IMG/VR virus record: IMGVR_UViG_3300044705_000031
Span: 1-22,103 of that record
Source: a virus
DNA: 22,103 nt
Direction: 5' to 3' (one strand)
The stretch's first letter is position 1; every line of letters starts with the position of its first letter. Below are positions 1 to 16,910 of this stretch, one piece after another. The notes under the pieces are model-generated. The model did no database searches and was not told where the DNA came from. It worked only from the letters and a program-made list of their open reading frames with translations. The translations under genes and the position numbers were made by a program.

Positions 1-189
1 GGTCTGTTGGACGCCGGGGCCGATGCCCTGCAATAGTTGGGCGAGCGCCTGGCTGTAGCCGGTGATGTTCTGCTGCTGCTGGTTGGCCGACTGGTCGTAG
101 GCGGTCTGCGCCTGTTTGATCGGTGCGGTGGCGGCGGCGACCATTTGGGCGACCGCCTGATTGATCGCGGCCTGGTTCGGGCTTGCGAT
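1..189 (-). CDS. Ala/Gln-rich virion protein, cut by the left window edge
   Basis: Only the first 63 codons lie in the window, and the frame is still open at base 1. The visible protein is rich in Ala and Gln (IASPNQAAINQAVAQ, then a QQQQN stretch) and should be largely helical, like its neighbour at 1028-1933. No function can be read from it; from its place I infer an internal virion or tail component. The start is chosen as ATC at 189-187, exactly 9 nt after a GGAG Shine-Dalgarno. The frame has a TAG a few codons upstream and no NTG codon before a Met at residue 16. Transcription would have to cross, or restart after, the opposite-strand gene at 222-374. Confidence 0.7.
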   Translation of the reverse strand, partial: MASPNQAAINQAVAQMVAAATAPIKQAQTAYDQSANQQQQNITGYSQALAQLLQGIGPGVQQT

Positions 190-203
190 ATGCGCGTACT
201 CCG
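187..203 (-). promoter_or_regulatory. GGAGTACG start element with ATC start
   Basis: Reads CGGAGTACGCGCATATC on the minus strand: GGAG, a 9-nt spacer beginning TACG, then ATC followed by GCA (Ala). It belongs to the family of eight start elements described in the findings. Confidence 0.65.
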
Positions 204-221
204 TGAGAAGCTAGGAATGGG

Positions 222-374
222 ATGCGCCTGATGGCGGTATCGATCCTGGTGCTCGCCGCCGCGATCGTCGGGGCGGCCTTCATGCTGCGCGATGGCTCGA
301 GCAAGGCGCGAACCGTGTACGTCTACAACTGCCACACGGACCCATACGCACAGAGTCCCGGGAGCGTCTGCTAG
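222..374 (+). CDS. Small single-pass membrane protein, the only plus-strand gene
   Basis: A 50-codon frame begins with ATG at 222 (a second ATG is at 231) and ends with TAG. The product starts MRLMAVSILVLAAAIVGAAF, a clear hydrophobic helix of about 18 residues. A short polar tail follows, with Cys residues near TVYVYNCHTDPY and at the extreme C-terminus. It could be a membrane peptide or have a cleaved or lipidated leader, but there is no lipobox I would trust. AGGA lies 5 nt before the ATG, and third codon positions are strongly G/C. It fills exactly the gap between two minus-strand genes, and its TAG overlaps the TAG of the 371-1018 gene in a shared CTAG. Opposite orientation suggests a separately acquired gene of the moron type. 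It is unrecognised, and it may still be chance. Confidence 0.5.
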   Translation: MRLMAVSILVLAAAIVGAAFMLRDGSSKARTVYVYNCHTDPYAQSPGSVC

Positions 375-1018
375 GGGAACTGAACCGGGGCGTGCCCAAA
401 CTGGCCGCCGAGCAGCCAGCCTGGGCCTAGCGGATGCACCTGACGCACATAGTCCGCGTAGTTCGCGTCGTAGTTGCCGGGCGTGTACGCGATCCCGGAA
501 CGCTTCGCCGCTGTCGGGGTGACAAGATCCGCGAACGCTTGCGCGCCACCTTCACGCTGCACTAGATCAGCAAGCACCTGTTGCGTTTGCCGAAGGTGCG
601 CCATCTCGTGCGGCATGTCAAGGACAGCTGGACTGTGGGCCGAGTTGTTCGCGTTCGTGAACGTCTCGACGCCGAGCGGGTCGATGTTGATCTGGTCCGT
701 TCCCTGCGCCGAGAAGTGTGCCGGGGTGAGCGGACTATCAGTCTGAACGAAGTTCAACGTCGGGGCTGTCCCTCCGAGCACGGTTTGCAGCGCCGCGAAC
801 AGCCTGTTCGACATTGACTGCGCGTCGTCTTGGATGGCGTTGCGGAAGAGGAAGTCGTCGCCGCCATGCGGATTCGATAGGATGCGATAGGTCGGTGTCG
901 CGGTTGGGGCCAGCCCGCTATGAGCGACCGCCGGTACCGCAGCGGTCGCCAACGCAGCGAGCGTGGCGACCCCTCGTTTCACAGCCGCAGTATCCCGCTG
1001 CGAACCGTGAGCCGTCAA
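371..1018 (-). CDS. Putative exported HExxH zinc metallopeptidase
   Basis: The 215-aa protein has a basic and then hydrophobic N-terminus (VKRGVATLAALATAAVPAVA, residues 13-32), which resembles a signal peptide ending near AVAHS. At residues 137-141 it has HEMAH, a match to the HExxH zinc-peptidase motif, preceded by AVLDMP. A Glu in QREGGAQAFADL (residue 156) lies 14 residues after the second His and could be the third ligand, as in gluzincins. The local look (HEMAHLRQTQQ) recalls DUF4157-type domains, but I cannot confirm the family. The start is TTG at 1018 with AGGAG 6 nt upstream. If active it could act on a cell-envelope or virion protein; that role is inferred. It follows the 1028-1933 gene by 9 nt. 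Confidence 0.75.
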   Translation of the reverse strand: MTAHGSQRDTAAVKRGVATLAALATAAVPAVAHSGLAPTATPTYRILSNPHGGDDFLFRNAIQDDAQSMSNRLFAALQTVLGGTAPTLNFVQTDSPLTPAHFSAQGTDQINIDPLGVETFTNANNSAHSPAVLDMPHEMAHLRQTQQVLADLVQREGGAQAFADLVTPTAAKRSGIAYTPGNYDANYADYVRQVHPLGPGWLLGGQFGHAPVQFP

Positions 1019-1027
1019 GTATCTCTC

Positions 1028-1933
1028 CTACGCGCCGTATGCCTGGCCCGGGAGCGGGATCCTGCCCGGGGCGAGCTGCTGAATCGTCGAGTTGACATTG
1101 CTCGGCGCATTACTCGGTACCGAGGTCTGGGGCGGAGGCTGCGGCGTGAAGCTGATCGGGTTCCCGGACGGGTCATAGTGGTTGCCGTTCGCGTCCACAT
1201 ACGTGCCTGTCGCCGGATCCCACGTCGCTGTCACAGTCCCCGTCGTCGGAACCGTCCCGCTCTGCGCAGCCGTGTTCTCCGCCGTCAACGCACCCTGGGC
1301 GAGCTGCTGCGCCGCCGCCTGCTGGCCCGCCGCATACTGCGCCTCGAGCTGGTCGATGTTGCCGAGCAGACTGTTCGTCGCGTTGTATTGGTCCTGGGCC
1401 TGCTGCTGACCGAGCTGTCCCAATTGGTACCCGGTCTCACCCGACGACAAAATCCCTCTAGCGGCAAGCTGGTTCTTCGTCGCGTCCTGTTTCTGCTGAT
1501 ATGTCTGGGCGAGCTGCTTCAGCACGCTAAACGGGTTGTTCTTCGCCAACGCCGCCGTCCCCGACGTGTCAAGGCCGGAATCGGTCAGGACGTTCGACGG
1601 CAGGTTGGGCACGTCGCCGAACTGGATGAGCGCCTGCTGCAACGCACCACGCAGCGATGCTGCGTTCCCGATCCCCTGCGCCGACAACAGATTCTTCAGC
1701 GACAGGAAGGCGGGGTCGTTCTCGATCGCGGACGCATAGTCCGGGGTGCCGGTGCCGATCGTGATCGTCTGCGGGTTGGAGGCTGTCGTCGACCCGTTGC
1801 CGCCCGTTGCCCCGGTACCTGCAACAGGGTTCAAAGCGAAGTAGCCGCCCGCACCGAACGCGTTCTTCAGCTCGGGCGGGTTCAACAGGTTGTAGCCGGC
1901 GGCCCCGGACAGGCCGGAAGTCTGAGAAGCGAT
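1028..1933 (-). CDS. Ala/Gln-rich virion structural protein
   Basis: 301 aa. The N-terminal third is Gly/Asn-rich (FGAGGYFALNPVAGTGATGG). The middle is helical, with LAARGILSSGETGYQLGQL and Gln/Ala-rich stretches. The C-terminus is Pro-rich and starts from a WDPATGTYVDANG repeat-like turn. Proteins with this ARGxLxSGxTG helical pattern occur next to tail genes in many phages and are usually annotated as hypothetical structural proteins, so the role is inferred. The start is assigned to ATC at 1933-1931, 9 nt after GGAG. A TAG precedes it in frame, and the next TTG (1885) has no Shine-Dalgarno and would remove 16 residues. The gene reads in the same direction as its neighbours with a 17-nt gap from 1951. 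Confidence 0.85.
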   Translation of the reverse strand: MASQTSGLSGAAGYNLLNPPELKNAFGAGGYFALNPVAGTGATGGNGSTTASNPQTITIGTGTPDYASAIENDPAFLSLKNLLSAQGIGNAASLRGALQQALIQFGDVPNLPSNVLTDSGLDTSGTAALAKNNPFSVLKQLAQTYQQKQDATKNQLAARGILSSGETGYQLGQLGQQQAQDQYNATNSLLGNIDQLEAQYAAGQQAAAQQLAQGALTAENTAAQSGTVPTTGTVTATWDPATGTYVDANGNHYDPSGNPISFTPQPPPQTSVPSNAPSNVNSTIQQLAPGRIPLPGQAYGA

Positions 1934-1947
1934 GTGTCCGTACTCCT
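1931..1947 (-). promoter_or_regulatory. GGAGTACG start element with ATC start
   Basis: Reads AGGAGTACGGACACATC on the minus strand, followed by GCT (Ala). The upstream in-frame codons are TAG GAG TAC GGA CAC, so no NTG is available before the ATC. Confidence 0.7.
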
Positions 1948-1950
1948 AAG

Positions 1951-2475
1951 TCACAAGTTTCCGTACTTGAGCGCGACAAGCCACCGCTTCGTGAACGTTC
2001 CCGTCCCGCCAGTGACCCTGTACTTCAACGTGATCGTATTGCTGCCGTTGTTCGACAACGCTTTCGTCACCGCCCGCGCCGCACTCATACCGGCCGTGCC
2101 GAACCCGAGCGTAAAATCGGTGTCCGACGCCGCCGCCGAATTGATCTGCGGCGACACCAGAAAGTTGTTCGTCGTGTCCCCCATCGACCCGACAGTGCCG
2201 AACACGATCAGATAGTTGCCGTCCGCAAGCCCGGACAGGAATGGTCCCGTCGTCGCGAGATCAGTGTACGACGTCGATGATGTCGACTCGCTCGCCGCCG
2301 TTGACGCCGTGTTCGCCGTAAATTGCGTGAACCCGAACACTTGCGAAATCGGAAACACAGGCGAGTTCGCAAGCCAGGTCTGGACGCCTACATAGTTGAC
2401 GAAGTCGGGCGGCAGGTTCAGCACGTCCTGCATCACCTCATACACCTGCTCCCGGATGTTCGGATCAACAGCCAC
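1951..2475 (-). CDS. Beta-rich virion protein, unknown role
   Basis: 174 aa. A short helical N-terminus (VDPNIREQVYEVMQDVLNL) is followed by a Ser/Thr/Gly-rich beta-type region (TSYTDLATTGPFLSGL, NTITLKYRVTGGTGTF). That composition is typical of phage tail-associated or decoration modules, but I recognise no family. The start is GTG at 2475, sharing its G with the TAG stop of the upstream gene (TAGTG). There is no strong Shine-Dalgarno, so translation is probably coupled to the 2475-3965 gene. Its placement next to the hub or nozzle candidate suggests a tail-tip component. Confidence 0.8.
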   Translation of the reverse strand: MAVDPNIREQVYEVMQDVLNLPPDFVNYVGVQTWLANSPVFPISQVFGFTQFTANTASTAASESTSSTSYTDLATTGPFLSGLADGNYLIVFGTVGSMGDTTNNFLVSPQINSAAASDTDFTLGFGTAGMSAARAVTKALSNNGSNTITLKYRVTGGTGTFTKRWLVALKYGNL

Positions 2476-3965
2476 TAGCCGACACCGCCGAGTGCGCCGA
2501 TCTCGAGCGGGTCATAGACGAGGGCGAGGTCGAAGAGGCGGAGATCGCCAGGGTTCGTCTGCGCCACCTTCAAGCTGATCGCGTTGGCACGGTTGCCGGT
2601 GCTGATCTGCCTGCGCACCCGCGTCGTCTGCGTCGTCGCGGCCAACGTGGAGCTAATCGCGGTGTAGCTCGACGAGTCCGGCGTGTTCGCATACGACAGC
2701 GTCAACGTCGGAGAGTCGGACGCGTAGTCGGTGAGGTTGTATCGGCAGTACACGTACTTCCACCGCTGCTGACCATCCGACGCAATCCACCGACGATGCA
2801 GCCTGTCCCAGCCCTGGTGCGCCATCGTCTCGAACGTCGCCGTCGGGGTCGTCCCGTCAGCATCCTGCTTCACCGAGCTTGTCGGTGACCAGCACGTTGA
2901 GATTTTCCCGACCCGGCCCGCGTTCGCCAAACCGATGTAGCACTCCTCAGCGCCACCGGTCGACACGTTCAGGCCGGTGTTGGCGTGGAAGTTCGAGAAC
3001 CGCCACATCGCCCCGGTGCTGAGGTTGGTGACGAACGTGTCCACGACCGTCGTCCCGTTGTTGATGGACAGGAAGTAGTGGTTGCGGTACACGAACCCGG
3101 ACAGCCTCCACGACGTGCTGTAGGACGCCATCTGTGTCTGGTAGTAGGTGCTCATTCCGGCGCGGGCGGTGAGGTCTGACCAGCCGGCACCGTCCGTCAT
3201 GAAGATGCCTTTGGCGTTCGCGTACAGCACCCGGTCGTTCCAACGGGCAACCGAGAAGGCGTCGAGGCAGCCGTGGTCGAAGAACCGTTTGTCCTGGACA
3301 AAGTCCGTGCCGGGCGGCGGGATGGAGCCACGGAACCTGTCCATGCTGTCGGCGTGGAAGGCGAGGATCATCGTCTTGAGTGCGACGACAGCGGTGAGCG
3401 CGCCACCATCGGAGTCCACATACCCGGATGACGTGTTCCAGGTGGTCGGGTCACCGGCCGCTGAGAAGTAGATGCGTTGCGGGGCCGAGCTCGTGTTCGC
3501 CAGAAACGCATGGTCGGCGAAGCTGCCTGCGTATTTGCCGGTCGGCGGTGTGCCCGCCAGGTTCCCGAGCGTCGCCCCGTCATATGACTTCGGGGTGGTG
3601 GTGCCGTCGTTGTTCGGGACGATGACGAGGTTCCGGTAGAACACCGGGTTCTGCGCGGGCAGGATCGCCGCACCGATGTCGGTGGGGCCGGAGTCGTACC
3701 GCCACAGCTCGCTGTTCTGGCCGATCGCGAGCACCTTGGTGCCGGCGGTGAACGGCGCATACACGAGCGCCTTGATCGACGTCACCGACGTCATCGCACC
3801 GGAGTCGCCATAGGACCAGCCGCCACGGCCACGCAGCGGCGCCCCGAGCTGGTCGGGGATGAGGTCGACGAGGTTCCATGCGGACGCGCCGGGCATGGCG
3901 GCCCGGTTGAAGTCGCGTTTCATGCCCGCCGTGACAGCGGTATCTACCGGATACGGATGCGGCAC
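2475..3965 (-). CDS. Probable beta-propeller tail hub or nozzle protein
   Basis: 496 aa, beta-rich throughout with repeated aromatic/Gly strand patterns. Examples are SELWRYDSG, KGIFMTDGAGWSDLT, NHYFLSINNG and GAMWRFSNFHANTG. This pattern and the location two genes after a P22 gp4-type adaptor fit the phage DNA-stabilisation or nozzle proteins that close the portal channel in podoviruses (P22 gp10-like). The family assignment is by appearance and context, not by a search. The start is GTG at 3965, one base after the TAA of the upstream gene. The upstream Shine-Dalgarno is weak, which suggests coupling. Confidence 0.8.
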   Translation of the reverse strand: MPHPYPVDTAVTAGMKRDFNRAAMPGASAWNLVDLIPDQLGAPLRGRGGWSYGDSGAMTSVTSIKALVYAPFTAGTKVLAIGQNSELWRYDSGPTDIGAAILPAQNPVFYRNLVIVPNNDGTTTPKSYDGATLGNLAGTPPTGKYAGSFADHAFLANTSSAPQRIYFSAAGDPTTWNTSSGYVDSDGGALTAVVALKTMILAFHADSMDRFRGSIPPPGTDFVQDKRFFDHGCLDAFSVARWNDRVLYANAKGIFMTDGAGWSDLTARAGMSTYYQTQMASYSTSWRLSGFVYRNHYFLSINNGTTVVDTFVTNLSTGAMWRFSNFHANTGLNVSTGGAEECYIGLANAGRVGKISTCWSPTSSVKQDADGTTPTATFETMAHQGWDRLHRRWIASDGQQRWKYVYCRYNLTDYASDSPTLTLSYANTPDSSSYTAISSTLAATTQTTRVRRQISTGNRANAISLKVAQTNPGDLRLFDLALVYDPLEIGALGGVG

Positions 3966-4214: not shown

Positions 4215-4925
4215 CTAGGGCCTGTAGGATGGGTAGACGCTGTTGTCGTGGTTCGGGTAGTGGCCGCGATACCCCTTACCGCCAACCGGCCTAACCCTCG
4301 GCAGCCTGTCACCGCCACGAGCCCTCAGATGCCGGCGGATCTTCCGCACCTGATCCTGGTACAGCTGAAAATACTTCGCGCCCATCTGCGAGGAGGCGTC
4401 ATCGTTCGCGTCCGCCGCCTCGCTGAGCGCGAAATACTCGATTGCTTTGTGGTAGGCGGTCGGGATGCCGCCGTTACTTGCGTTCGACGGATCATCCGAC
4501 CCCGCCGACAGAGCAGTCGGGACGGGCACGTAATAGAGCGTGTACGTGTCCGCCGAGCCCGGCGTCGGATGGAACAGCACCGTGTTTTGGCCTGCGAGCG
4601 CGTAATACTGGGTCGGGGCCGTCGAAGCGGAAGCGTTGCGGCGCACCTCCAATAGCTCCGGCACCGTCAACCGTTCCAGCTGATAGGTGATCCCGGCCGA
4701 GGTGGCGGACATGTAGACGATCTCGAGCACCGACGAGGTCAGCGTGTAATCCGATGTCGCTCCCGGAGTCACCGTTGTCGAGGTGACGTAACAGTGGGTG
4801 TCGAGGAGCGTCTGGATGACGCCATCGTTGACCCAGCCGTCGATGTAGGTCTGGTCTCCGGAGACGCTGTTGTCGAGGCCAAGCCGGTTCGCGATGTTCG
4901 TCCGGAACATGGTCAGCGTAGGTAC
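4215..4925 (-). CDS. Head-tail adaptor protein, P22 gp4-like
   Basis: 236 aa. Features seen: an N-terminal helix FRTNIANRLGLDN, WVNDGVIQTLLDTHCY, strands around VLEIVYMSA, the pattern PTQYYALAGQNTVLF, a PGSADTYTLYYVPVP strand pair, and a C-terminal helix containing SSQMGAKYFQLYQDQV before a basic tail (RRHLRARGGDRLPRV). This order matches phage adaptor proteins that dock under the portal ring (gp4 or tail accessory family). The start is either GTA at 4925, 9 nt after GGAG and giving the N-terminus PTLTMFRTN, or ATG at 4910, which is 24 nt from the Shine-Dalgarno. I favour GTA because of the shared start element, but the ATG remains possible. Confidence 0.88.
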   Translation of the reverse strand, partial: VPTLTMFRTNIANRLGLDNSVSGDQTYIDGWVNDGVIQTLLDTHCYVTSTTVTPGATSDYTLTSSVLEIVYMSATSAGITYQLERLTVPELLEVRRNASASTAPTQYYALAGQNTVLFHPTPGSADTYTLYYVPVPTALSAGSDDPSNASNGGIPTAYHKAIEYFALSEAADANDDASSQMGAKYFQLYQDQVRKIRRHLRARGGDRLPRVRPVGGKGYRGHYPNHDNSVYPSYRP

Positions 4926-4939
4926 AGCCGCTTACTCCT
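4923..4939 (-). promoter_or_regulatory. GGAGTAAG start element with GTA start
   Basis: Reads AGGAGTAAGCGGCTGTA on the minus strand. The in-frame TAA inside the spacer rules out an earlier start. An ATG lies five codons downstream, so this member is less decisive than those at 189, 1933 and 5280. Confidence 0.55.
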
Positions 4940-5280
4940 TAGCCGCGAACGTCGATGCCTTGCAAATTCGCCTCACAGTTCGATGTTGAGGCGCTGATCT
5001 TCACGAGGACGTCCTGGTTCGATGCGCCCTTCATGTTGCCGAGCGGCCACGCATCCGACAGCGTGAACGCCGACGCGAAACGCTTCTGGTACAGCTTTGT
5101 CCCCGCCGGGGACTCGATCGTCACCACTGCGGCCGCGTCACCGGAACACTGGATGCCGGTCACGCAATGCCTGACACCGGCCGCGGTCGTCGCGGAATAC
5201 GTGACTGTGACACCGGAGTTCGTGCCGACTCCGGTGGCCTGCCACCGACCGAGGTCGTTGTTGAAGTAGTAATCGCCTAT
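4939..5280 (-). CDS. Small beta-rich virion protein with an ATA start
   Basis: 113 aa when begun at ATA 5280-5278. The N-terminus reads GDYYFNNDLGRWQATGVG, and the protein continues in beta-rich form with Cys residues in HCVTGIQCSGD and SNCEANLQG. The ATA is 9 nt after GGAG. In frame, TAG lies four codons upstream, and the first NTG downstream is GTG at 5163, 39 codons later with no Shine-Dalgarno. Starting there would discard an obviously protein-like N-terminus. No family is recognised; a surface or tail-decoration role is a guess from composition and position between the repeat protein and the adaptor. Confidence 0.75.
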   Translation of the reverse strand: MGDYYFNNDLGRWQATGVGTNSGVTVTYSATTAAGVRHCVTGIQCSGDAAAVVTIESPAGTKLYQKRFASAFTLSDAWPLGNMKGASNQDVLVKISASTSNCEANLQGIDVRG

Positions 5281-5294
5281 CGGTACGTACTCCT
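5278..5294 (-). promoter_or_regulatory. GGAGTACG start element with ATA start
   Basis: Reads AGGAGTACGTACCGATA on the minus strand, and the AGGAG overlaps the TAG stop of the 5293-6336 gene. This is the clearest case for a non-NTG start, because no NTG occurs within 38 codons downstream. Confidence 0.75.
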
Positions 5295-6730: not shown

Positions 6731-7156
6731 CTAGTTCTCCACGTTCGTGAAGCCGTTGGTGTTGATCTGCGGTGTGTCTGACGCATTGATCGTCGTCGAT
6801 GTGATGTCTGCACCGTGGTAGAGGTTGCCGGCGGTTGACGCGTCGGCGGTGAACGCGGACAGCTGCGTCTGCCCGGATCCGGTGTTCTGCGGAAACGTGA
6901 TCGCGCCGCCGGCAGAACCGGTCTTCGTTGCCGAACCGGAGCCGGTCGCTGCGGGGAAGTTCGTCGTGTTGTTCGTCACCGACACACGCGCATACGACGG
7001 GTATGACGCCTCCGTGATCGTTGACCCGGTCTTCGTGTTGTCGAACGCCGCAGTGGACAGGCCGAAATAGACGGGGGACGCCCCCGCGAAGCTCGTCGCC
7101 CCATAGACCGCGTCGTTGACTTTCTTCGCGAGGTAGTTGAACTTGCCAGCTGCTAT
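6731..7156 (-). CDS. Beta-rich tail or fibre-associated protein with an ATA start
   Basis: 141 aa. The protein has AGKFNYLAKKVNDAVYGATSF, then SPVYFGLSTAAFDNTKTG and YPSYARVSVTNNTTNF. This order (YFGLST, then a segment containing YARVxVT) is typical of small phage tail or fibre proteins often annotated as hypothetical. The rest is Ser/Thr/Gly-rich beta sequence. The start is ATA at 7156-7154, 9 nt after GGAG and overlapping the upstream TAA by one base (TAATA). No NTG is present near the N-terminus in this frame. An ATG at 7198 is in frame, but it is upstream of the Shine-Dalgarno and inside the previous gene. Confidence 0.8.
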   Translation of the reverse strand: MAAGKFNYLAKKVNDAVYGATSFAGASPVYFGLSTAAFDNTKTGSTITEASYPSYARVSVTNNTTNFPAATGSGSATKTGSAGGAITFPQNTGSGQTQLSAFTADASTAGNLYHGADITSTTINASDTPQINTNGFTNVEN

Positions 7157-7170
7157 TAGGCCGTACTCCC
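7154..7170 (-). promoter_or_regulatory. GGAGTACG start element with ATA start
   Basis: Reads GGGAGTACGGCCTAATA on the minus strand, followed by GCA (Ala). The A of ATA is also the last base of the stop codon of the gene at 7156-7614. Confidence 0.65.
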
Positions 7171-7614
7171 TGGGAAGCTGCCGTGGCCGCGATGCCACTC
7201 GTTGTGGTCGGGATGCGAGTCGTAAGCCTGCGCCGGATGCGTCTTGTCATCGGGAAGCGGCGGCAGGATCACCGGCTGGCCGACACCGTGCTTCTCCACC
7301 CATGACAGGTGATGCGGTTGCGCGTATTCGTAGAACCAGTCCTCTTCGCGCTGCTGATCGTCGTTCAGATGCAGTTTTCGGTCTGGGACCTCGTTGCCGT
7401 TGTCGTCGATGCGGGTAGAGTAGTGCCAGCCGCCCTCAAGCACCTTCTGGTAACTGCCGTCCGGCTGCTCGGCGTATTCGTCCCGGCAAACCCAGCAGCG
7501 CGGCCCGTCATACCGCCCGACAGGATCAGGCTCAATAGAAGCCTCTACCGGCTCGTCGTTGACGGGTTCGGGTTCGATAACCGAGGTGACTGCACGGCGA
7601 CGGAACAGATTCAT
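7156..7614 (-). CDS. Unknown 152-aa hydrophilic protein
   Basis: The N-terminus is basic (MNLFRRRAVTSV) and followed by a Pro/Glu linker. Then comes RCWVCRDEYAEQPDGSYQKVL with one CxxC pair, a His/Trp-rich centre (QPHHLSWVEKHGVGQP) and a His-rich tail (HPDHNEWHRGHGSFPG). The Cys and His content could bind metal, but no known finger spacing is complete. The start is ATG at 7614 with AGGAG about 9 nt upstream. It overlaps the stop of the small basic frame at 7611 by four bases. Confidence 0.8.
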   Translation of the reverse strand: MNLFRRRAVTSVIEPEPVNDEPVEASIEPDPVGRYDGPRCWVCRDEYAEQPDGSYQKVLEGGWHYSTRIDDNGNEVPDRKLHLNDDQQREEDWFYEYAQPHHLSWVEKHGVGQPVILPPLPDDKTHPAQAYDSHPDHNEWHRGHGSFPGSTA

Positions 7615-7736: not shown

Positions 7737-8211
7737 AGTCGCTTACCCCTGACGGAAGCCAAATCGACGAGCCCGGCTGATGACGGCGCCGCTGTCCGTT
7801 CTCAAGCATCCGTTCGTACTCGTCCGTCAGGCTTGTGGTGGGGCCGAACCAACGTTCCCCTTCGAACTCTTCCTGGAAGTGCTGCCGCTGCAACGCCTGC
7901 ATCGAATAGCCGCATAGTGAGCACGCCTCAGGGAACGGTGTCTCCTGTGGCTCCCAGCAGCGGATACATGCGTAGCCTTGACGGAATCGTTCGATCGTCT
8001 CCTGGTCGAACGTTGCCCGATATCCCGCTCGCATCACGTTGCCGTCGAACGTCACAGTGGACGGGTCGTCTTCGACAGCAACAGGGCGGATTGGTTTGCG
8101 CCACCGTTCGGCGGGACCGTCTTCGGCCTGCTTCTGCCTGTACTCGCGCAGCAGCGACTCAGCCGACTTCGGGCCACCGGATTTGACTTCCGTGATCTCG
8201 GGTTCGTTCAA
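7726..8211 (-). CDS. Zinc-ribbon protein of unknown role
   Basis: 161 aa from a TTG at 8211 that overlaps the upstream TGA (TTGA). An ATG at 8259 would add 16 residues but overlap the glycosyltransferase by 52 bases. Helical, charged sequence (SAESLLREYRQKQAEDGPAE) is followed by a ribbon with CxxC at residues 82-85 and 97-100 (YACIRCWEPQ...ACSLCGYSM). The spacing is like rubredoxin-type or zinc-ribbon knuckles. The protein ends in a Gln/Arg/Ser-rich tail. It has no recognisable catalytic motif. It lies between the glycosyltransferase cassette and the tail genes. Confidence 0.75.
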   Translation of the reverse strand: MNEPEITEVKSGGPKSAESLLREYRQKQAEDGPAERWRKPIRPVAVEDDPSTVTFDGNVMRAGYRATFDQETIERFRQGYACIRCWEPQETPFPEACSLCGYSMQALQRQHFQEEFEGERWFGPTTSLTDEYERMLENGQRRRHQPGSSIWLPSGVSDSAA

Positions 8212-9851
8212 GCCGCTATCAGCTCCCGTCGTGTCACCGTGGTTACAGCTTCCCGCCACAGGTTCGCGTTGTGTCCCATCGTTCGATGAGTGAGGACATA
8301 CGCGCGACCAGTGGCGGCAAGATCGATCCGGCGATCCGCCCCATACACCAAATCCTGGACCGCTCGGAGGAAACCCCTTGCGTCGGATGCTTTGCGGCAG
8401 TGATCACCGTCAACCCAATCTCGATACGGGATCACGTCCGACAGCACCGGGACGGCACCGCCCATCAGGTATTCCAACGCTTTCACATCCGACCTGCACG
8501 ACGACCACGGGGTCGCCTTCACCGGGGCCAACCCAATGTCGAGGATGCGCAGCATGGCGCGCAGCACACTCATGTCGGACGTCCACGGGATATGCCTGAA
8601 CCCGCCCGCCCGCGACAACCGTCCGGCCATTTGCGGGGTAAGGATCGGTCCGAACACGACCGCCTCAACGTTTTTCCGTCCAGCACACCATTCCAACGCC
8701 TGCATCACCAGACTCATGTCCTGGATGTGTGATGCGGATCCGGCGATACCGACATACGTCTTCTCGGGGTCGTACCAGTCCGGCAATTCCCGTTCGGGCC
8801 AATCACCAGGATCGATCTGGTTCGGACACACGAACACGGGCGCGTCCGTCACCTTCCTGTACTGGTTCGCTAAATGCTCGGTGGTGACGATCAGGCCGTC
8901 GCACCACTTGACAATCTTTCGATGCGTGTCATGGGCGGGCCACGTCCGGGTGTCGCCGCGTTTCGGCGGCTCCGCCTTCCAGCCACGGCCGCGTGGCGCC
9001 TTGATCAGATAGTTGTCGTCACACTCGACGAGGCACGGGATGCCGAGCTCCTGCATCGCCGCCATCGTCTGCCGTTCATACTCATGGCCGGGGAACTGCC
9101 ACACTGCGACGCCGCGATGATGCGGCAACAAAATCTCGTCACCGTGGATCTGCACAAGCGGCCGGTGGTTCCACACCTGGGCGGGCATCACCCGTGCAGG
9201 AAGCAGACACCGCCAATACGTTGTCGCGACCGTCTCTTGCGAATAGAACGTCGCCAACAGTGGTGGTTCCGCACCAACAATCTTGTGTTTCAAGTTGACG
9301 GCCTTCTCGACAACCATCTTGTTCCGTGACGCCTGCACGTTCCGGTAGAGGTAGCGGGCGTCCGTCACCCATTTGAATCGGCCGCCGGCACGAAACAACC
9401 TGATCCACAGATCCCAGTCCTCAAGGGTGGGCAGTTCATGCCAGCCGCCAACCTCGAGAAGCTTTTTCCGGCGGATGACGCATCCGGCACCGGGGATGTA
9501 GTTCCACACTTGGAGGCGGTTGCCGCAGAACTCGCCCGGCGTGGTGATCCCGGTGGCACGGCCACCGTCTTCGGTGATGTGCAGCAGAGACGGGTAGGCG
9601 ACGTCAACGTCCCAACATGCTTGGACTTGCATGTGGACTGATTCGGTGTCGAGGATGTCGTCCGCGTCTAGCCTGAGCACATACTCGGTTGTGGCGGCCC
9701 GGGCGCCCTGGTTGAGCGCGGCGGCTAGCTCGCCGTCGTTTTCGAGGATCAGATATGGGATTCCCTCAGGAACGGACCTGACGGCTTCACGCAACCAGTC
9801 TTTCCGCGCATCCCTTCTGCACGGGATCAGAACAGTGACTTCTGGTGTCAC
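8208..9851 (-). CDS. Two-domain glycosyltransferase (GT-A plus GT-B fusion)
   Basis: 547 aa. Residues 1 to about 200 are a GT2-like domain: VTVLIPCRRD at the nucleotide end, LDADD at 61-65 for metal and sugar-nucleotide binding, and LEDWDLWIRL at 143-152, the usual acidic catalytic region. Residues from about 240 to the end look like a GT-B (GT4-type) domain, with ECDDNYL, YVGIAGSASHIQD and the donor-site-like SDVKALEYLMGGAVPVLSD near 454-472. Two sugar-transfer activities in one chain are inferred. GTG at 9851 overlaps the upstream stop (GTGA). Neighbouring glycosyltransferase and cytidylyltransferase genes support a role in glycan synthesis on the virion or host surface. Confidence 0.88.
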   Translation of the reverse strand: MTPEVTVLIPCRRDARKDWLREAVRSVPEGIPYLILENDGELAAALNQGARAATTEYVLRLDADDILDTESVHMQVQACWDVDVAYPSLLHITEDGGRATGITTPGEFCGNRLQVWNYIPGAGCVIRRKKLLEVGGWHELPTLEDWDLWIRLFRAGGRFKWVTDARYLYRNVQASRNKMVVEKAVNLKHKIVGAEPPLLATFYSQETVATTYWRCLLPARVMPAQVWNHRPLVQIHGDEILLPHHRGVAVWQFPGHEYERQTMAAMQELGIPCLVECDDNYLIKAPRGRGWKAEPPKRGDTRTWPAHDTHRKIVKWCDGLIVTTEHLANQYRKVTDAPVFVCPNQIDPGDWPERELPDWYDPEKTYVGIAGSASHIQDMSLVMQALEWCAGRKNVEAVVFGPILTPQMAGRLSRAGGFRHIPWTSDMSVLRAMLRILDIGLAPVKATPWSSCRSDVKALEYLMGGAVPVLSDVIPYRDWVDGDHCRKASDARGFLRAVQDLVYGADRRIDLAATGRAYVLTHRTMGHNANLWREAVTTVTRRELIAA

Positions 9852-10399
9852 TGATGGTTGTGGTGGTACAGCGTCTGCGGGATCTTCACTATCGTCAGCG
9901 CGGCCCGCTGGACACGGTTGATGAACACACCGTCGTTCTCATAGTTCTGTGTGCCTGGATATCCGACTTCGCGGGCGAGCTGTGTCCTGACGATGAAGTT
10001 GCCTGACGTGGACGAGCCTGCGTGGAATCCGCAGTTGCTCATGCCGCTCCAGTCGCAGTAGACGGCGTCGGCATCTGCGCGTTCCGCGGCGGCCATGAGC
10101 ATTTCGAGGTAGGCGGGGTGGTAGCTGTCGTCGTCGTTGAAGAAACCGAGGTAATCCTTGGTTGCGCGTTCGACGCCGGCTTCGCGTTTCGCGTGCCCCC
10201 AATCAGCCTTGTCGTCCTCGGCGTAGAACGTCGCCCACGGGAACTCTTCCGCAAGCCTCGCGAACTCGCCAGGGGACGCCATGCTGATAAACACGAGCGT
10301 CTCGTCCGGTTTGCGCGTGCCGTACATCAGATTACCTAGGATGTACCGCAAACCCTTGACGTTGTTATGCGACGTGACAATCGCGCTAAAGGTTGCCAC
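9848..10399 (-). CDS. GT2-type glycosyltransferase
   Basis: 183 aa. It opens with FSAIVTSHNNVKGLRYILG, the usual first strand and helix of a GT-A fold. FNDDDSYHP near residues 87-95 supplies the DxD-type metal site. A C-terminal segment contains GSSTSGNFIVRTQLAREVG and ENDGVFINR, which fits the family's acceptor region. It is short compared with many GT2 enzymes (about 230-300 aa). GTG at 10399 is chosen because longer versions run into non-protein-like sequence overlapping the upstream enzyme. It overlaps that gene by 14 bases and the next one by four. Confidence 0.85.
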   Translation of the reverse strand: MATFSAIVTSHNNVKGLRYILGNLMYGTRKPDETLVFISMASPGEFARLAEEFPWATFYAEDDKADWGHAKREAGVERATKDYLGFFNDDDSYHPAYLEMLMAAAERADADAVYCDWSGMSNCGFHAGSSTSGNFIVRTQLAREVGYPGTQNYENDGVFINRVQRAALTIVKIPQTLYHHNHQ

Positions 10400-10802
10400 G
10401 CGCCCTAATCCCTGTCGTTGAAATCGACTTCGTGTACGGGACGTAGCAGAGCGTGATGCCGCGATCGTCCAGCCAGTCCTGATCGAACCCCATCTGCCGG
10501 TAATAGTCCTTCCGCGCCCAATCGCTACCGACCACCACATAGTCCGGGACGGCGCGAGCGACGCATGCGGCACCGTCACCATCACACGGGATCACGGACG
10601 TCACCGATTTGAGCGCGAGAAGCACGGTGCGACGCGTTTCGAACGGCATCACCGGCGGCTGCCCCTTATATGACTCGACGAACTCGTCGGTGTTCAATCC
10701 TACGGTGACGTCACCGAGGAACGCGCAGTGGCGGAGGATGTTGATGTGTCCGTCGTGGAGCAGATCGAAGGTGCCGACCGTGACGACTCTGCGCGGCTTC
10801 AC
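10386..10802 (-). CDS. Cytidylyltransferase, TagD/glycerol-3-phosphate type
   Basis: 138 aa, about the length of TagD enzymes. VTVGTFDLLHDGHINILR at residues 8-25 carries the HxGH nucleotide site. VGSDW is at about 91-95, and SISTTGIR near the C-terminus matches the ISTTxI signature. The family transfers CMP from CTP to glycerol-3-phosphate or a related phosphate to make a CDP-activated precursor. The true substrate is unknown here. The Arg that precedes the ISTT motif in TagD (RTEGISTT) is replaced by YTKSISTT, so specificity may differ. GTG at 10802 overlaps the upstream stop (GTGA). It probably feeds the glycosyltransferases downstream. Confidence 0.9.
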   Translation of the reverse strand: MKPRRVVTVGTFDLLHDGHINILRHCAFLGDVTVGLNTDEFVESYKGQPPVMPFETRRTVLLALKSVTSVIPCDGDGAACVARAVPDYVVVGSDWARKDYYRQMGFDQDWLDDRGITLCYVPYTKSISTTGIRARGNL

Positions 10803-11784: not shown

Positions 11785-11796
11785 GACTTGCGGTTG

Positions 11797-12981
11797 TTAC
11801 GACGTCATCCCCTGAACCCAGAGATGCGCCTGCTCCTGCTGGAACTCAAGCGACGTCTCGGTCAAAAATTCCTCGTCGATCGTGTCGGCGTCGTTCGCCT
11901 GCCGGTTCGTGAGCAGCACCGTGTCCCGGAGGGGACGGAGCTTCACATACGACAGGTCGATGCCGAACCCGTGCGACCCGTAGCCGCTGGTCGTCTGCGC
12001 GAAGTCGTTCCACTCACGCTTGACGATGATCGGCAGGTTCGTGCCATACGCGCCGGAGATGAACCCATCGACTTTGACACCGAACTTAACCGACGCGCCA
12101 GCGACGTCCGGGGTTCCCCACGCCGACCCGAGCCCGTTCGACCCGTACGTCGAAAGGATGCGGGCGACGAGCGGGGCGGCGAAGAACACCTTCGACGTGT
12201 TCTCACCATGGGCGAACAGCAGATCCATATACGAATCGAACGTCGCCTTGGTGACCTGGCCGGCCGGGTTCTTCTTGTTCGTCGAGATGAACTCGGCCGC
12301 GCCACCCACATAGCCGATCGGATGCAACCCGGACGTGTTCAGTGAACGCGGTCCGAAGAACAGAAGAGACTCGATCTTGCGCTTATGCTCGACCGCCTTC
12401 TTCTTCCGCTCCAGCATCGGCTCCTGGCCGCCGTACAGCTTCGATGCGGCCAGCGTGTTCGTGAACCCGTACGACGACCGGATGATCTGCGTGTAGTTGT
12501 ACGCGTTCGTCTTCTTCGTCTGCCGACGCGTCGGGAGCGAAGCGCCCTGAGCGGCAGCGTTGCCGAGGATGACGATGTCGCCGCCGGACGCAGCAGAAGC
12601 TGCACCGGTCGCGCCGACACCACGCGTAACACCAACCGTGTCGGTTGCCGGATCGGCGGACACAGCGACCGCCTCACCCGTCGACACGATGCGGCACACG
12701 TCACCGTTGATGAAGTACGCGCCCGTACCGGTCGCAACCGAGATCGTCCCGGCCGCCGACGTCGCCGACGCCGCAAGAGTCGTCGTGCGCGGCACGTACT
12801 GGTCCTCAAGCCACTCCACCTTCGACGAGAAGGCGGGACGGGAGGACAGCTTCATGAGCATCGTCGTGAACTGCGACTGATCCGGATCGAGCTCCGCGAT
12901 CACCGGGTCCATGTCGATCACTCGCCGGTTCGACAGGATCGTGTTGTCGTCCTGAAGACCGGTCAGCATGTTGACTGCTAT
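11797..12981 (-). CDS. Major capsid protein, DUF5309/SU10 type
   Basis: About 394 aa. Family-like features are the N-terminal region NRRVIDMDPVIAELDPDQSQ, a YVPRTTTLAASA strand, the segment TKKTNAYNYTQIIRSSYGFT, FFGPRSLNTSGLHP and the C-terminal RDTVLLTNRQANDADTIDEE. These fit the HK97-fold capsid proteins of the SU10/DUF5309 group, which assemble the icosahedral shell. It lies directly after the scaffold gene. Start: ATG at 12969 gives MLTGLQDDN but is 21 nt from any GAG. ATA at 12981 (ATA GCA GTC AAC ATG) is 9 nt after GCGAGTAAG and matches the shared start element, adding four residues. I list the longer form, with moderate certainty for the exact start. Confidence 0.92.
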   Translation of the reverse strand: MAVNMLTGLQDDNTILSNRRVIDMDPVIAELDPDQSQFTTMLMKLSSRPAFSSKVEWLEDQYVPRTTTLAASATSAAGTISVATGTGAYFINGDVCRIVSTGEAVAVSADPATDTVGVTRGVGATGAASAASGGDIVILGNAAAQGASLPTRRQTKKTNAYNYTQIIRSSYGFTNTLAASKLYGGQEPMLERKKKAVEHKRKIESLLFFGPRSLNTSGLHPIGYVGGAAEFISTNKKNPAGQVTKATFDSYMDLLFAHGENTSKVFFAAPLVARILSTYGSNGLGSAWGTPDVAGASVKFGVKVDGFISGAYGTNLPIIVKREWNDFAQTTSGYGSHGFGIDLSYVKLRPLRDTVLLTNRQANDADTIDEEFLTETSLEFQQEQAHLWVQGMTS

Positions 12982-12995
12982 CGGTTCTTACTCGC
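12979..12995 (-). promoter_or_regulatory. Variant start element (GCGAGTAAG) with ATA start
   Basis: Reads GCGAGTAAGAACCGATA on the minus strand, followed by GCA (Ala). It differs from the other members by one base in the Shine-Dalgarno part (GCGAG for GGGAG). An in-frame TAA lies in the spacer. An ATG four codons downstream is the conventional alternative. Confidence 0.5.
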
Positions 12996-13049: not shown

Positions 13050-13073
13050 GCCCGGATCTGCCGGCTCTCAACA

Positions 13074-13102
13074 GCGAGGTATCTCCAGAGGTGGAGGCTC
13101 GC
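13074..13102. promoter_or_regulatory. Interrupted hairpin in the scaffold-capsid gap
   Basis: GCGAG and CTCGC form the outer arms, and CTCCA and TGGAG the inner arms around GAGG. It starts about 10 nt after the scaffold stop. On the minus strand the T-run lies before the hairpin, not after it, so it is not a normal intrinsic terminator. It may protect or separate the capsid mRNA. Confidence 0.4.
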
Positions 13103-13112
13103 AAAAAGGGTG

Positions 13113-14078
13113 TTACTGGCCGGCGGGCCGTGTGTCGGCCCACGATGTCGGCGACGGTGCTTTCAGGAAGTCGTAGAACGCCTGTAGCTCCTGGTCTTCG
13201 GGTGTCTCCTCGATCGCCGGGGTTGAGGAGGCCGATGCGGTCGCGGCTGCGACCTTTGCGGCTTTCGCTTCCGCCGCCGCCTGTTCGGCAACGACGGGTG
13301 CCGCAGCGGCAGCCACTTCGATCTGTTCCGCCTTCTTCCAGCGGTACAGCGTTTCGAGCAGCTGCTCTTTCTGTGCCTGCGTTCCGCGTGCCGCCGCCAG
13401 ATACTCCATCGGGAATCCCTGGTTGACGAGCTGCTGAACGCGGGCCTCGTCGGCGAGGTCGCCGACAACCTGTTCAAAGTCTGCGTGACGCGCCGTGACC
13501 GCCCTGGTGGCGGCTTCGGATGCGGACTGGTCCGCGTACTGCTGGGCGGTCTGCACCTGGGGTGCGATCTGTGCAAGCGCCTGCTGCTGCGCAACCTGCG
13601 CCTGCCTCGCCGACTCAAACCGGAGCGCACCGAACCCGTCGTATTGAGACCACTGCTCCAGGATCCGCTCATACGCGCCGTGGTCATTCTGCTGAAGCGC
13701 CTGGACGGCGAGCGACTGCGCCTGCTGCCGTGCCGCAGCCGGGTTCGTCGTGAACGCATCCTCAACCGCGTCCACGTTCACCGGGGCAGGCGGCGGGGCG
13801 GGCTGCTGGTTCCGCAGCTCGCCAACCTCGAGCCGCAAACGGCCGATCTCGGACTGGGAGTGCTCCAACGCTTTCAAGGCGTCTTCGACGTTCTTGTATT
13901 TGCCGAGGATCAGCTCCGGCTCTGCTACCGGTTCCGGAGTCTCTGCGACCGAAGTGTCCGGCGTTTCCGGTGCCACTTCCTCCTCAATGGGGTCAGCGGC
14001 AGCTTCTACAACCTGTGGCTCCTCCTGAGGCTCACCGTCCGTGAATTGTTCGGTGAGGTAGCTCTCGAAGTCAGTCAA
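13113..14078 (-). CDS. Capsid scaffold protein
   Basis: 321 aa. It has an acidic, low-complexity N-terminus rich in Glu/Pro/Val (about residues 1-55). The conserved-looking LILGKYKNVEDALKALEHSQ and a heptad-like RLRLEVGELRNQ helix follow, then a long Ala/Gln-rich coiled-coil middle (ARQAQVAQQQALAQI). The C-terminus is helical (DQELQAFYDFLKAP). This composition, and a place just before the capsid gene, are typical of phage scaffolds that direct procapsid assembly and leave or are cleaved later. TTG at 14078 overlaps the upstream TGA (TTGA) and has AAAGG 7 nt upstream. Confidence 0.88.
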   Translation of the reverse strand: MTDFESYLTEQFTDGEPQEEPQVVEAAADPIEEEVAPETPDTSVAETPEPVAEPELILGKYKNVEDALKALEHSQSEIGRLRLEVGELRNQQPAPPPAPVNVDAVEDAFTTNPAAARQQAQSLAVQALQQNDHGAYERILEQWSQYDGFGALRFESARQAQVAQQQALAQIAPQVQTAQQYADQSASEAATRAVTARHADFEQVVGDLADEARVQQLVNQGFPMEYLAAARGTQAQKEQLLETLYRWKKAEQIEVAAAAAPVVAEQAAAEAKAAKVAAATASASSTPAIEETPEDQELQAFYDFLKAPSPTSWADTRPAGQ

Positions 14079-14350
14079 CTATCGGCCTTTCTGTTCGCGC
14101 GGAGGACTTCGCGTTCGAAGCGTTGCTCCGCTTTGTCGGGTTCAGCGAGAAGATCAGTCCACGCCTGCATGTAGCCGCGCTGGAAATCGATGTCTCGCTG
14201 ATCGAACGGTTCCGCGTCACGCACCAGTTTCCGTGCGACTTCGCGTTCCCATCGTTTCGTTGCTCGTTCATGCGCAGCCCGGAGCTCAGCCCAGCCGCGA
14301 TGCAGCACAAGCTCATGGAGAGCCTGGGCTGCGTTGCCGGTGTCGGTCAC
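14075..14350 (-). CDS. Unknown helical protein, 91 aa
   Basis: The protein is charged and helical: LHELVLHRGWAELRAAHERA, KLVRDAEPFDQRDIDFQRGY and a C-terminal EQRFEREVLRANRK. Short phage proteins with the DQRxIDFQRGY-type helix are often found between the portal and scaffold genes, with no assigned function. GTG at 14350 overlaps the preceding stop (GTGA), and its own stop overlaps the scaffold start. Coupling at both ends supports it as a real gene in the head operon. Confidence 0.8.
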   Translation of the reverse strand: MTDTGNAAQALHELVLHRGWAELRAAHERATKRWEREVARKLVRDAEPFDQRDIDFQRGYMQAWTDLLAEPDKAEQRFEREVLRANRKADS

Positions 14351-14529
14351 CCGGCGGGCGGGAACAGCGGATCGTCCGGCCCTTCGCTCCCGTCCTGGCA
14401 GGTGTAGGTGAGCGTCTCGGTGTCGTTCACCTTGATCGTGTCGCCGGGGTCCGGGGCGGCCTTGACGAAGTGGGGGCCAGGGTCGAGCTGCTGCGCCTTG
14501 TAGGCGATCGAAACCGGGGTGGCGGCCAT
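14347..14529 (-). CDS. Small unknown protein, 60 aa
   Basis: The sequence reads PVSIAYKAQQLDPGPHFVKA, then a short beta segment TIKVNDTETLTYTCQDGSEG and a Pro-rich end. ATG at 14529 shares a base with the upstream TGA (TGATG), with AAGG 8 nt upstream. It could be a small virion or assembly protein, but nothing identifies it. Confidence 0.7.
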   Translation of the reverse strand: MAATPVSIAYKAQQLDPGPHFVKAAPDPGDTIKVNDTETLTYTCQDGSEGPDDPLFPPAG

Positions 14530-14738
14530 CAGTAGCCCTTCACCACATGACCGGTCGACTGTGACTCTCCGGCGAGCGCGTCTGCGTTTCCGGACACGAC
14601 ACGACCGTTCGGATGCATCGGATGATTCGACTTGCCGAAGCCGCTGTCGTGCAGTGGCACATCGACGACGGCGTAACTGTTCGCACCGTTGCCGACTTCT
14701 GCGCCGACGCTTTCAGGCCCGGTTGCTGCTTTAGCCAA
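14529..14738 (-). CDS. Small unknown protein after the portal, 69 aa
   Basis: Gly/Ser/His-rich: KAATGPESVGAEVGNG, VPLHDSGFGKSNHPMHPNGR. No membrane segment or motif is seen. The TTG start at 14738 is exactly 9 nt after GGGAG and belongs to the shared start-element family, the only member with an NTG codon. It begins 15 nt after the portal stop and overlaps the next gene by one base. Confidence 0.75.
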   Translation of the reverse strand: MAKAATGPESVGAEVGNGANSYAVVDVPLHDSGFGKSNHPMHPNGRVVSGNADALAGESQSTGHVVKGY

Positions 14739-14752
14739 AACCTCGTACTCCC
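14736..14752 (-). promoter_or_regulatory. GGAGTACG start element with TTG start
   Basis: Reads GGGAGTACGAGGTTTTG on the minus strand, followed by GCT (Ala). It shows that the fixed 9-nt spacing also positions a conventional start codon, which helps calibrate the others. Confidence 0.8.
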
Positions 14753-14753
14753 T

Positions 14754-16619
14754 TTATGCGTTAGACGGTCCGCCCGACATCGCGCCCAACCGTTGGGTTG
14801 CCGCGGCGGGCGACTGGCTGAACGCGTTCGATGGACTGTTGATATCGATCGACTGGGGGGCGGTGACGCCCTGCGGGGCAATCCCGTTCCCCTGCTGCTG
14901 CTGTGCGGGTTGTGCCTGTGCGCCGGGGACAGGGTTCATCGGCTGCTTCGGGCTGTAATAGCGTTGCGTGTCGTTGATTCCGGCCGCACGCAGCACGTCA
15001 TCCATGAACGCCTGCAAGTTGATGTTCGGCTGGCCGGGCAGGGCGGCGAAGAACTGGGTTGCCTGCTGCGCAATCTGCAACCGTGACGTGGCTTCGGCGA
15101 GGTTCTGCTGCTTCACGAGCGACTCGTCCATCGCTTCCATCTCGATGAAGTAGTCGCCCTGCAACATCAACGGGCGGACTTCTTCGAATGCGACCGCCCC
15201 GTCCATCCCCGTCACCTGCACAAGCCTGGGCTCGGTGATGAACTGCTGGTTCATCTTGAGCCACTGCTCGCCGACTTTCTTCTCAGCCCACTTGAACTGC
15301 TGCTTCATCAGCCCGATCCGCTTCTGCGCCAACGTCGTCGTCACACTGATTTCGGTGGCGGTCTGCGCGGACGGATCCGTCTGCCCCAACAACGTCGGGG
15401 AAGCACCCGGAATGTTCTGAAGATCCTGCTTGATCAACTCCTCCGCCTTCAGCGAAACCTCGGAAGGCATCGGGTTGATCTGCATCATCTCGACCTGCTC
15501 CGGCCGCTGCACCACATTCTGCGCACCAGGACCCCAGTCGAGATCACCTTCGAAGTCTTCCGCGATCAGAAACGGCGGCGTGACAAGGATCTCGGTCATG
15601 TCGATCCGCTGATTCAGGAACGACCATGCCGCCTCCTGAAGTTCCGCAATCAACTCCACGATGGAGACGCCGGGGATGCGGCCAAGATCAGGGACGGGGG
15701 CGCAAACAACGAACGGAAGCTCGCCATGCCAGAACGGCGACGGCGTGTCGCGCAGCAGCACCTTCCGGTTCCCCACACTGACGACCGAGATGGTGCCGTC
15801 TGCTTCGCGGCGCCACTGCTCCAACACCTCGATCTTGCCTTTCGTCCTGTCCTCGCCGAACAGATCGTTCTCGCGATCACTGTTGCCGGAAGAAGTGCTG
15901 TAGTCGCGTGACTCCTTCAGCAGCGACACCGGCTGGCCGTTCGCCCTGACCCCGTACACGCCTTGCGCCTCAAGCTGCAACAGCTCGTCGTACGAGTACC
16001 AGACGCGGTGCGTGACTCGGCCGGCACGGTCAAGTGACACGCTGCCTTCCTGAAAGAAGATGTCCCGGACATCGACGACGTCGACGGTAGGGCGGTCTTC
16101 GATGCGGCGGCGTTTCTTCGTGCCGAGCCTCGGAACCTGGACGCCCTGGTACTGCTGGTAGACGAGGGCCTGCTCGGGGACGTCGCGTTCGTTGTATTCC
16201 CACCGGGTCTTGTACACCGACATCTGGGCGATGAACGCCTGCTTCGCAAACAGCAGCTGCTTCGCCGCGAACTGATCCTCGTCCACCTGCTCGCTGAGGA
16301 GGATTTCGTTGGCGCGGATGCCCGCGTTCAACCGTGCGATCGCGTCAGGCTGATCCATGCGGGGACGGCCACGGACACGCCACTGCACGTTCGGGTCAAC
16401 CACAGAGGCGACGAGCGTTTCGATGACCTGGAACCCGTAGGCGGGATGCAGCTTCGACGTCCACTCCACGCTCTTGGACCGGATTTCCGCGATGCCCCGG
16501 TAGGCGCGATACCAGCGGTCGACGTTCTGCACATACCCGGCGTGGGGTTTGAGGTCTTTCTCGAAGTCGGTGAGGAGCCTGCCGACGAGATCGGCGGGCT
16601 TGTCGGGGCGTTTAGCCAC
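14754..16619 (-). CDS. Portal protein, P22-like
   Basis: 621 aa. N-terminal helices (DFEKDLKPHAGYVQNVDRWY) and the early strand WTSKLHPAYGFQVIETLVAS precede the clip-like region. Near residues 296-345 it has FWHGELPFVVCAPVPDLGR followed by an NQRID helix, and near 404-424 IPGASPTLLGQTDPSAQTAT, a pattern common in P22-type portals. The C-terminal 60 residues are Gln/Pro/Ala-rich. The protein forms the dodecameric DNA channel where terminase and adaptor dock. GTG at 16619 overlaps the upstream gene by 8 bases. The gp4-like adaptor downstream supports the assignment. Confidence 0.93.
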   Translation of the reverse strand: MAKRPDKPADLVGRLLTDFEKDLKPHAGYVQNVDRWYRAYRGIAEIRSKSVEWTSKLHPAYGFQVIETLVASVVDPNVQWRVRGRPRMDQPDAIARLNAGIRANEILLSEQVDEDQFAAKQLLFAKQAFIAQMSVYKTRWEYNERDVPEQALVYQQYQGVQVPRLGTKKRRRIEDRPTVDVVDVRDIFFQEGSVSLDRAGRVTHRVWYSYDELLQLEAQGVYGVRANGQPVSLLKESRDYSTSSGNSDRENDLFGEDRTKGKIEVLEQWRREADGTISVVSVGNRKVLLRDTPSPFWHGELPFVVCAPVPDLGRIPGVSIVELIAELQEAAWSFLNQRIDMTEILVTPPFLIAEDFEGDLDWGPGAQNVVQRPEQVEMMQINPMPSEVSLKAEELIKQDLQNIPGASPTLLGQTDPSAQTATEISVTTTLAQKRIGLMKQQFKWAEKKVGEQWLKMNQQFITEPRLVQVTGMDGAVAFEEVRPLMLQGDYFIEMEAMDESLVKQQNLAEATSRLQIAQQATQFFAALPGQPNINLQAFMDDVLRAAGINDTQRYYSPKQPMNPVPGAQAQPAQQQQGNGIAPQGVTAPQSIDINSPSNAFSQSPAAATQRLGAMSGGPSNA

Positions 16620-16896
16620 TCTTGGCGAGTGCCCGCTGAAGCCCAGGCTGGCCGAGAAGCTGCTGCCGCTCGCGTTCCTCGTTCGCGAGCACCTTCTGGA
16701 TGTTCGCGATACACGACGCGATCACAGCCTTGTCCTGATCCGAGTCCTCAGTCGACAGGGCGACCTTGAGCAGGCTGAGCGCCTGCGTCAGCGCACGCGC
16801 TTCAGCCGCATCGTTGTTGCCGCCGCTCTGCTGTTGCGGTGCTTGTACCTGGATGGTGTGCTGGCCGTTCGGCGGCCCGAAACCCATTGCGGAGAT
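16612..16896 (-). CDS. Small helical protein upstream of the portal
   Basis: 94 aa. A Gln-rich linker (IQVQAPQQQSGGNND) leads into two helices, EARALTQALSLLKVAL and KAVIASCIANIQKVLANEER. The form suggests a small oligomeric assembly protein, but no family is recognised. The start is ATC at 16896-16894, 9 nt after GGAG, followed by TCC GCA ATG. The ATG at 16887 is the conventional alternative, 18 nt from the Shine-Dalgarno. An in-frame TAA (the previous gene's stop) blocks any earlier start. Confidence 0.8.
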   Translation of the reverse strand: MSAMGFGPPNGQHTIQVQAPQQQSGGNNDAAEARALTQALSLLKVALSTEDSDQDKAVIASCIANIQKVLANEERERQQLLGQPGLQRALAKSG

Positions 16897-16910
16897 ATCC
16901 GCTTACTCCT
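16894..16910 (-). promoter_or_regulatory. GGAGTAAG start element with ATC start
   Basis: Reads AGGAGTAAGCGGATATC on the minus strand. The TAA in the element is the stop codon of the 41-aa gene at 16903-17028, which links termination and restart. Confidence 0.6.

Follow-up and report, generated by a model that had tools for sequence, protein, structure and literature searches.

Probable AUA, AUC and GUA start codons at a fixed distance from a GGAG core in virion genes of a phage

The stretch of DNA analyzed here (the window, 22,103 bases) is itself the virus record, a 22-kb fragment representing a partial genome of an uncultured phage, and the motif scan covered all of it. Eight genes on its minus strand, designated A, B, D to H and the major capsid protein (MCP) gene, are preceded by the sequence element GGAGTAMG or by a variant of it. 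The elements and genes are as follows.

1..189, minus strand: gene A, 5' part only (contig end); predicted ATC start at 187-189, then Ala; first downstream NTG at +15 codons
195..202, minus strand: gene A element, GGAGTACG (motif scan)
1028..1933, minus strand: gene B, 301 amino acids, no assigned function; predicted ATC start at 1931-1933, then Ala
1939..1946, minus strand: gene B element, GGAGTACG (motif scan)
4215..4925, minus strand: gene D; predicted GTA start at 4923-4925, then Pro
4931..4938, minus strand: gene D element, GGAGTAAG, with an in-frame TAA inside it
4939..5280, minus strand: gene E, 113 amino acids, no assigned function; predicted ATA start at 5278-5280, then Gly
5286..5293, minus strand: gene E element, GGAGTACG (motif scan)
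6731..7156, minus strand: gene F, fibre protein of the gp80 family (PF23140); predicted ATA start at 7154-7156, then Ala
7162..7169, minus strand: gene F element, GGAGTACG (motif scan)
11797..12981, minus strand: MCP gene (phrog_1328); predicted ATA start at 12979-12981, then Ala
12987..12995 (approximate span; ends 5 nt before ATA), minus strand: capsid variant element, GCGAGTAAG
14529..14738, minus strand: gene H, 69 amino acids; conventional TTG start behind the same element and spacing
14744..14751, minus strand: gene H element, GGAGTACG (motif scan)
16612..16896, minus strand: gene G, a small open reading frame (ORF) before the portal gene; proposed ATC start at 16894-16896, then Ser
16902..16909, minus strand: gene G element, GGAGTAAG, holding the in-frame TAA of the preceding ORF

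The window has seven copies of GGAGTAMG, all of them on the minus strand, against 0.80 expected; the maximum in 100 dinucleotide shuffles was three copies, and none reached seven. All seven copies lie directly 5' of genes, as an earlier note on this DNA had claimed. The codons that the same note placed 9 nt after GGAG were confirmed as ATC (189), ATC (1933), GTA (4925), ATA (5280), ATA (7156), TTG (14738) and ATC (16896); the coordinates that it gave (189, 1933, and so on) mark the start codons, not the motif. The variant element that it placed 5' of the capsid gene also was recovered, as GCGAGTAAG-N5-ATA, in which N5 is AACCG and the ATA is at 12981. GGAG lies 9 nt upstream of the codon at seven of the eight sites, and the capsid leader has a GAG core. 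Near-cognate starts (AUA/AUC/GUA) are apparent in six or seven genes of the window, the capsid gene included, compared with about five or six NTG genes led by a Shine-Dalgarno (SD) sequence. Many of the remaining NTG genes in the window lack an SD and overlap, or directly adjoin, the stop codon before them.

GGAG is the ordinary SD core. The proposal that a specially strong SD sets the start codon was not borne out: the mean pairing energy is -7.4 kcal/mol, versus -7.9 kcal/mol at NTG genes, in duplexes computed with a generic anti-SD that may not be the host's. In relatives, GGAGTAMG also stands 5' of NTG starts (TTG in L013, ATG in L016 and L017, GTG in L018), which indicates that the element itself does not select non-NTG codons. 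A role for GGAGTAMG as a specific non-NTG switch was rejected, since in relatives the motif either precedes NTG starts or lies inside genes, where it supplies Glu-Tyr codons; the near-cognate starts of two relatives, for their part, follow GGAG without TAMG. What distinguishes these sites in the window is a 9-nt spacing between GGAG and the codon, versus 5 to 8 nt and occasionally 10 nt at SD-led NTG genes, together with weaker mRNA structure in the initiation region (-15.9 versus -21.8 kcal/mol, MWU p=0.018).

Alignment of the N termini with homologues, a check proposed in the earlier note, placed NTG codons on the window's ATA in the capsid gene and gene F and on its GTA in gene D. The capsid gene is the clearest case of a predicted near-cognate start. 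Its ATA-GCA-GTC aligns with TTG-GCA-GTA of L008 (77% identity), with leaders that read GCGAGTAAGCAACC-TTG-GCAGTA in L008 versus GCGAGTAAGAACCG-ATA-GCAGTC in the window; the leader element GCGAGTAAG is common to the window and L008/L013. At the position of the ATA, the codon is ATG in L009, L011, L016, L017, L019, L020/L021, L024 and L027, TTG in L012, and GTG in L023, and an NTG lies one codon off it in L010, L018, L015 and L025/L026.

Gene D encodes a virion structural protein, judging by a weak match to phrog_399/10775/2941. Its start region, GGAGTAAGCGGCT-GTA-CCT, was compared with GGAGTAAGCGCAT-GTG-GCG of the distant L018, which has the identical GGAGTAAG and 9-nt spacing and a start codon that differs in its third base; the corresponding codon is ATG in L009 and GTG in L010. 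Gene F reads ATA-GCA-GCT-GGC in the window, and ATG stands in place of the ATA in L009, L037, L039-L041, L044 and L053. The gene F ATA overlaps an upstream TAA (TAATA).

The genes might instead start at conventional NTG codons nearby, with the near-cognate triplets being incidental. D, MCP and G each have an in-frame TAA inside the motif and an ATG 3 to 5 codons downstream (4910, 12969 and 16887, respectively), so that all three have a nearby NTG alternative, and an in-frame GTG (7198) lies 14 codons upstream of F. In addition, codon log-likelihoods gave practically no coding signal between the ATC of gene B and its first NTG. None of these NTGs, however, has an SD at normal spacing, and the capsid ATG at 12969, the sole conventional alternative for that gene, is ATT in L008, whose TTG aligns with the window's ATA. 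The first downstream NTG is 15 codons away in A, 16 in B and 39 in E; B has an in-frame TAG just upstream of its ATC, and E has a stop close upstream of its ATA. In A, E and F, the codons from the proposed start up to the first downstream NTG carry a coding signal. The earlier note had counted four genes without a usable NTG, and this stands clearly for A, B and E; F has only the SD-less GTG at 7198. Together with the near absence of ATA elsewhere in the window, these observations make a start at nearby NTGs unlikely. No alignable homologous N terminus was found for A, B, E or G, the homologues of B not covering that region. Gene G, with an ATG 3 codons later and homologue N termini that could not be aligned, is the weakest of the eight predicted cases.

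Another possibility is that the downstream genes are not initiated separately but are reached by ribosomes that read through a stop codon, or shift frame, in the gene before. Gene E would suit such a mechanism, being in frame with g5293, whose TAG stop overlaps the GGAG of E. B, D and F, in contrast, are not in the frame of the preceding gene. MCP is preceded by an in-frame TAA and by no coding frame, and each homologue is a gene of its own, with its own start. Readthrough or frameshifting is thus very unlikely.

Among 6,603 in-frame codons of the window, ATA is used internally only 3 times, whereas it makes up three of the eight predicted starts. The hypergeometric probability that 3 of 6 ATA codons fall on the 8 predicted starts is ~2e-8, and that for ATH plus GTA is 2e-9; both values are conditional on the positions having been picked by motif and spacing, not by codon. 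The second residues, listed for 189, 1933, 4925, 5280, 7156, 14738, 16896 and MCP, are A, A, P, G, A, A, S and A. This upholds the statement that Ala comes second in five of the eight genes, the other three having Pro, Gly and Ser. All eight are small residues (chance of ~1e-4 from the codon usage of the window), and small second residues are typical of methionine aminopeptidase substrates. An origin of the start codons in sequence error, DNA damage or an assembly artefact is barely credible. ATG to ATA and GTG to GTA are indeed single G-to-A changes, but random error cannot confine changes to start positions, deamination of ATG does not yield ATC, and the same kind of start occurs in L015 and L022, from other metagenomes.

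These two recurrences came from an unbiased scan for GGAG followed by any non-NTG codon, covering 16 relatives and 36 loci that are less closely related, the output of which was mostly background. Candidates without homology support fall largely into that background, and for this reason only L022 and L015, both IMG/VR contigs, are claimed. The gp80 homologue of L022, whose terminase is the most similar to that of the window among the relatives (71%), reads ctttaGGAGtcagctcaa-ATA-GCA-GGC, with GGAG 9 nt before the ATA, a stop 4 codons upstream of it and no NTG for 16 codons. The post-capsid gene of L015 reads aaaaGGAGgcgatccac-ATC-CGC, again with GGAG 9 nt before the ATC; at this position, TTG is found in L013, L014, L018 and L022, GTG in L010 and ATG in L016. 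An ATT in the post-capsid gene of L027 was not counted, its status being ambiguous: there is a GTG in frame 3 codons upstream of the Pro codon region that follows. The L022 and L015 cases, as independent recurrences, suggest that this near-cognate start type is real and recurrent but sporadic. Among the phages compared, only the window concentrates predicted near-cognate starts. Viral scans for closer kin returned only L008 and more distant contigs, and several of the relative loci share one contig (e.g., L008, L013, L030 and L066) and hence are not independent. The L008 orthologues of the affected genes have TTG or ATG starts, which implies that even in the nearest relative the trait has not become fixed. 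No relatives of gene E or of the tail protein g2475 were found in the viral scans, and phage tblastn with genes E and B returned nothing. In the host search, no capsid relative was found among 84,980 genomes and no exact match to the core of the phage tRNA-Ser.

Taken together, the homologue alignments, the near absence of ATA elsewhere and the recurrence in two relatives agree with the earlier inference of initiation at AUA, AUC and GUA in several virion genes. On the sequence evidence, we consider it about 80% probable that virion genes of this phage truly start at the ATA, ATC and GTA triplets placed 9 nt after GGAG. The GGAG core would position the ribosome on a weakly structured leader, and the initiator tRNA would start on a codon mismatched at its third base (NUA or NUC rather than NUG). 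The first residue presumably would be fMet, and initiation would have to be efficient enough for capsid protein.

The confidence placed in the start codons does not extend to their cause. The likeliest cause, which we put at even odds, is that third-base checking of the start codon is relaxed in the infected host, through low or inhibited IF3 or a tolerant initiation system. With checking relaxed, start codons at SD-led sites with a 9-nt spacing could leave NTG by drift or by tuning, and SD-less, stop-coupled genes would have kept ATG or GTG. A changed initiation system, based on an anti-IF3 factor of the phage or on an initiator tRNA that reads NUA/NUC (e.g., with a modified or altered anticodon base 34), might make the start codon an expression gate, the virion genes being written with start codons that only the changed system reads efficiently; this seems rather doubtful. 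The only tRNA gene in the 22-kb fragment is tRNA-Ser(GCT), and no IF3-like gene was recognized among the window genes scanned.

The starts also could be true but regulatory, serving attenuation or late gating, such that they are used well only after a change in IF3 or another factor late in infection. Every affected gene whose product could be recognized is a virion gene, all share one leader type, and bacterial AUU/AUA starts serve attenuation and IF3 feedback (PMC13009471). Nonetheless, the portal, scaffold, g2475 and g5293 genes, which belong to the same operon, have ordinary NTG starts, as do the orthologues in relatives, and a capsid protein has to be made in large amounts. The window also consists mainly of structural genes and so offers no contrast by which virion specificity could be judged. 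On this evidence, a regulatory role is possible but is not the reading that we favor, which remains that of near-cognate starts under relaxed third-base checking.

Single rare non-NTG starts are known in bacteria and phages. infC of Escherichia coli has an AUU start and is autoregulated by IF3. It shares with the window the AUH codon class, against which IF3 discriminates, but it is one autoregulated host gene, whereas the window has six or seven phage genes with predicted starts of this kind. In Staphylococcus aureus, infC, ccpN and cvfC1 have near-cognate AUA/AUU starts with an extended SD, and AUA/AUU starts with a strong SD give 10 to 30% of AUG activity, modulated by IF3 (PMC13009471). 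As in those genes, an AUA/AUU-type start in the window would be chosen by an SD at long spacing with no need for NTG. The S. aureus cases are single regulatory genes kept low, whereas the window has a block of virion genes, capsid included, uses AUC and GUA as well, and has only the 4-base GGAG core. The reported efficiency of 10 to 30% at AUA/AUU fits awkwardly with a major capsid protein. At such a rate, the phage presumably either can afford the loss or infects a host that accepts the mismatch more readily than model bacteria do. An AUU start, for which the authors excluded sequencing errors, was reported for orf28 of Streptococcus thermophilus phage TP-J34 (PMC3952083). Like the window, this is a rare AUH start in a phage gene, but it is a single predicted case, compared with at least six in the window, three of them with comparative support. 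L022 and L015, which belong to the same capsid group but are distantly related, share with the window GGAG-N9-ATA/ATC without an NTG alternative; they differ from it in that each contig has just one such gene and its GGAG is not followed by TAMG. Full-text literature searches, with subscription papers outside their scope, turned up neither a phage reported to have several near-cognate starts nor a whole virion module with them.

Phage gene finders generally allow only ATG, GTG and TTG, and GUA is absent even from the start list of genetic code table 11. Genes of this type consequently would be truncated, extended or missed, and the capsid, D and fibre genes described here would all receive a wrong start from such programs. 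A capsid gene started at AUA, if read correctly, would imply that host initiation accepts third-base mismatches at useful rates, either of itself or because it is made to do so. This would run contrary to the usual view that such starts only keep expression low.

Three further features were recorded in the window:

371-1018: gene that begins with TTG and contains a HEMAH-like motif (MPHEMAHLRQTQQ)
8208-10802: three genes, two resembling family-2 glycosyltransferases and one resembling a cytidylyltransferase (PF00535 and PF01467 matches)
21779-21866: phage tRNA-Ser (GCT) gene

The gene at 371-1018 perhaps encodes a metallopeptidase; it had no match in Pfam or PHROG. The glycosyltransferase-like and cytidylyltransferase-like genes are flanked by the capsid gene on one side and by tail/fibre genes on the other. 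An exact match to a 45-nt core of the tRNA-Ser (GCT) was found in none of 84,980 bacterial and archaeal genomes.

Gene starts also were inspected in related viral contigs. In L022 (9880-10060), the first 27 residues of the capsid homologue are missing in frame and a stop interrupts, so this contig may carry a frameshift, or its capsid gene may start in an unusual way. At the gene following the capsid gene in L027, GGAG-N8-ATT-CCT is present at ~8889; the ATT may be the start codon, an assignment that is ambiguous because an in-frame GTG lies a few codons upstream.

In the terminase, L022 shares 71% identity with the window phage, and L008, another related contig, shares 44%. For the capsid the ranking is reversed, with 77% identity for L008 and only 44% for L022. 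These opposite rankings indicate that the head modules are mosaic across the window phage, L008, and L022.
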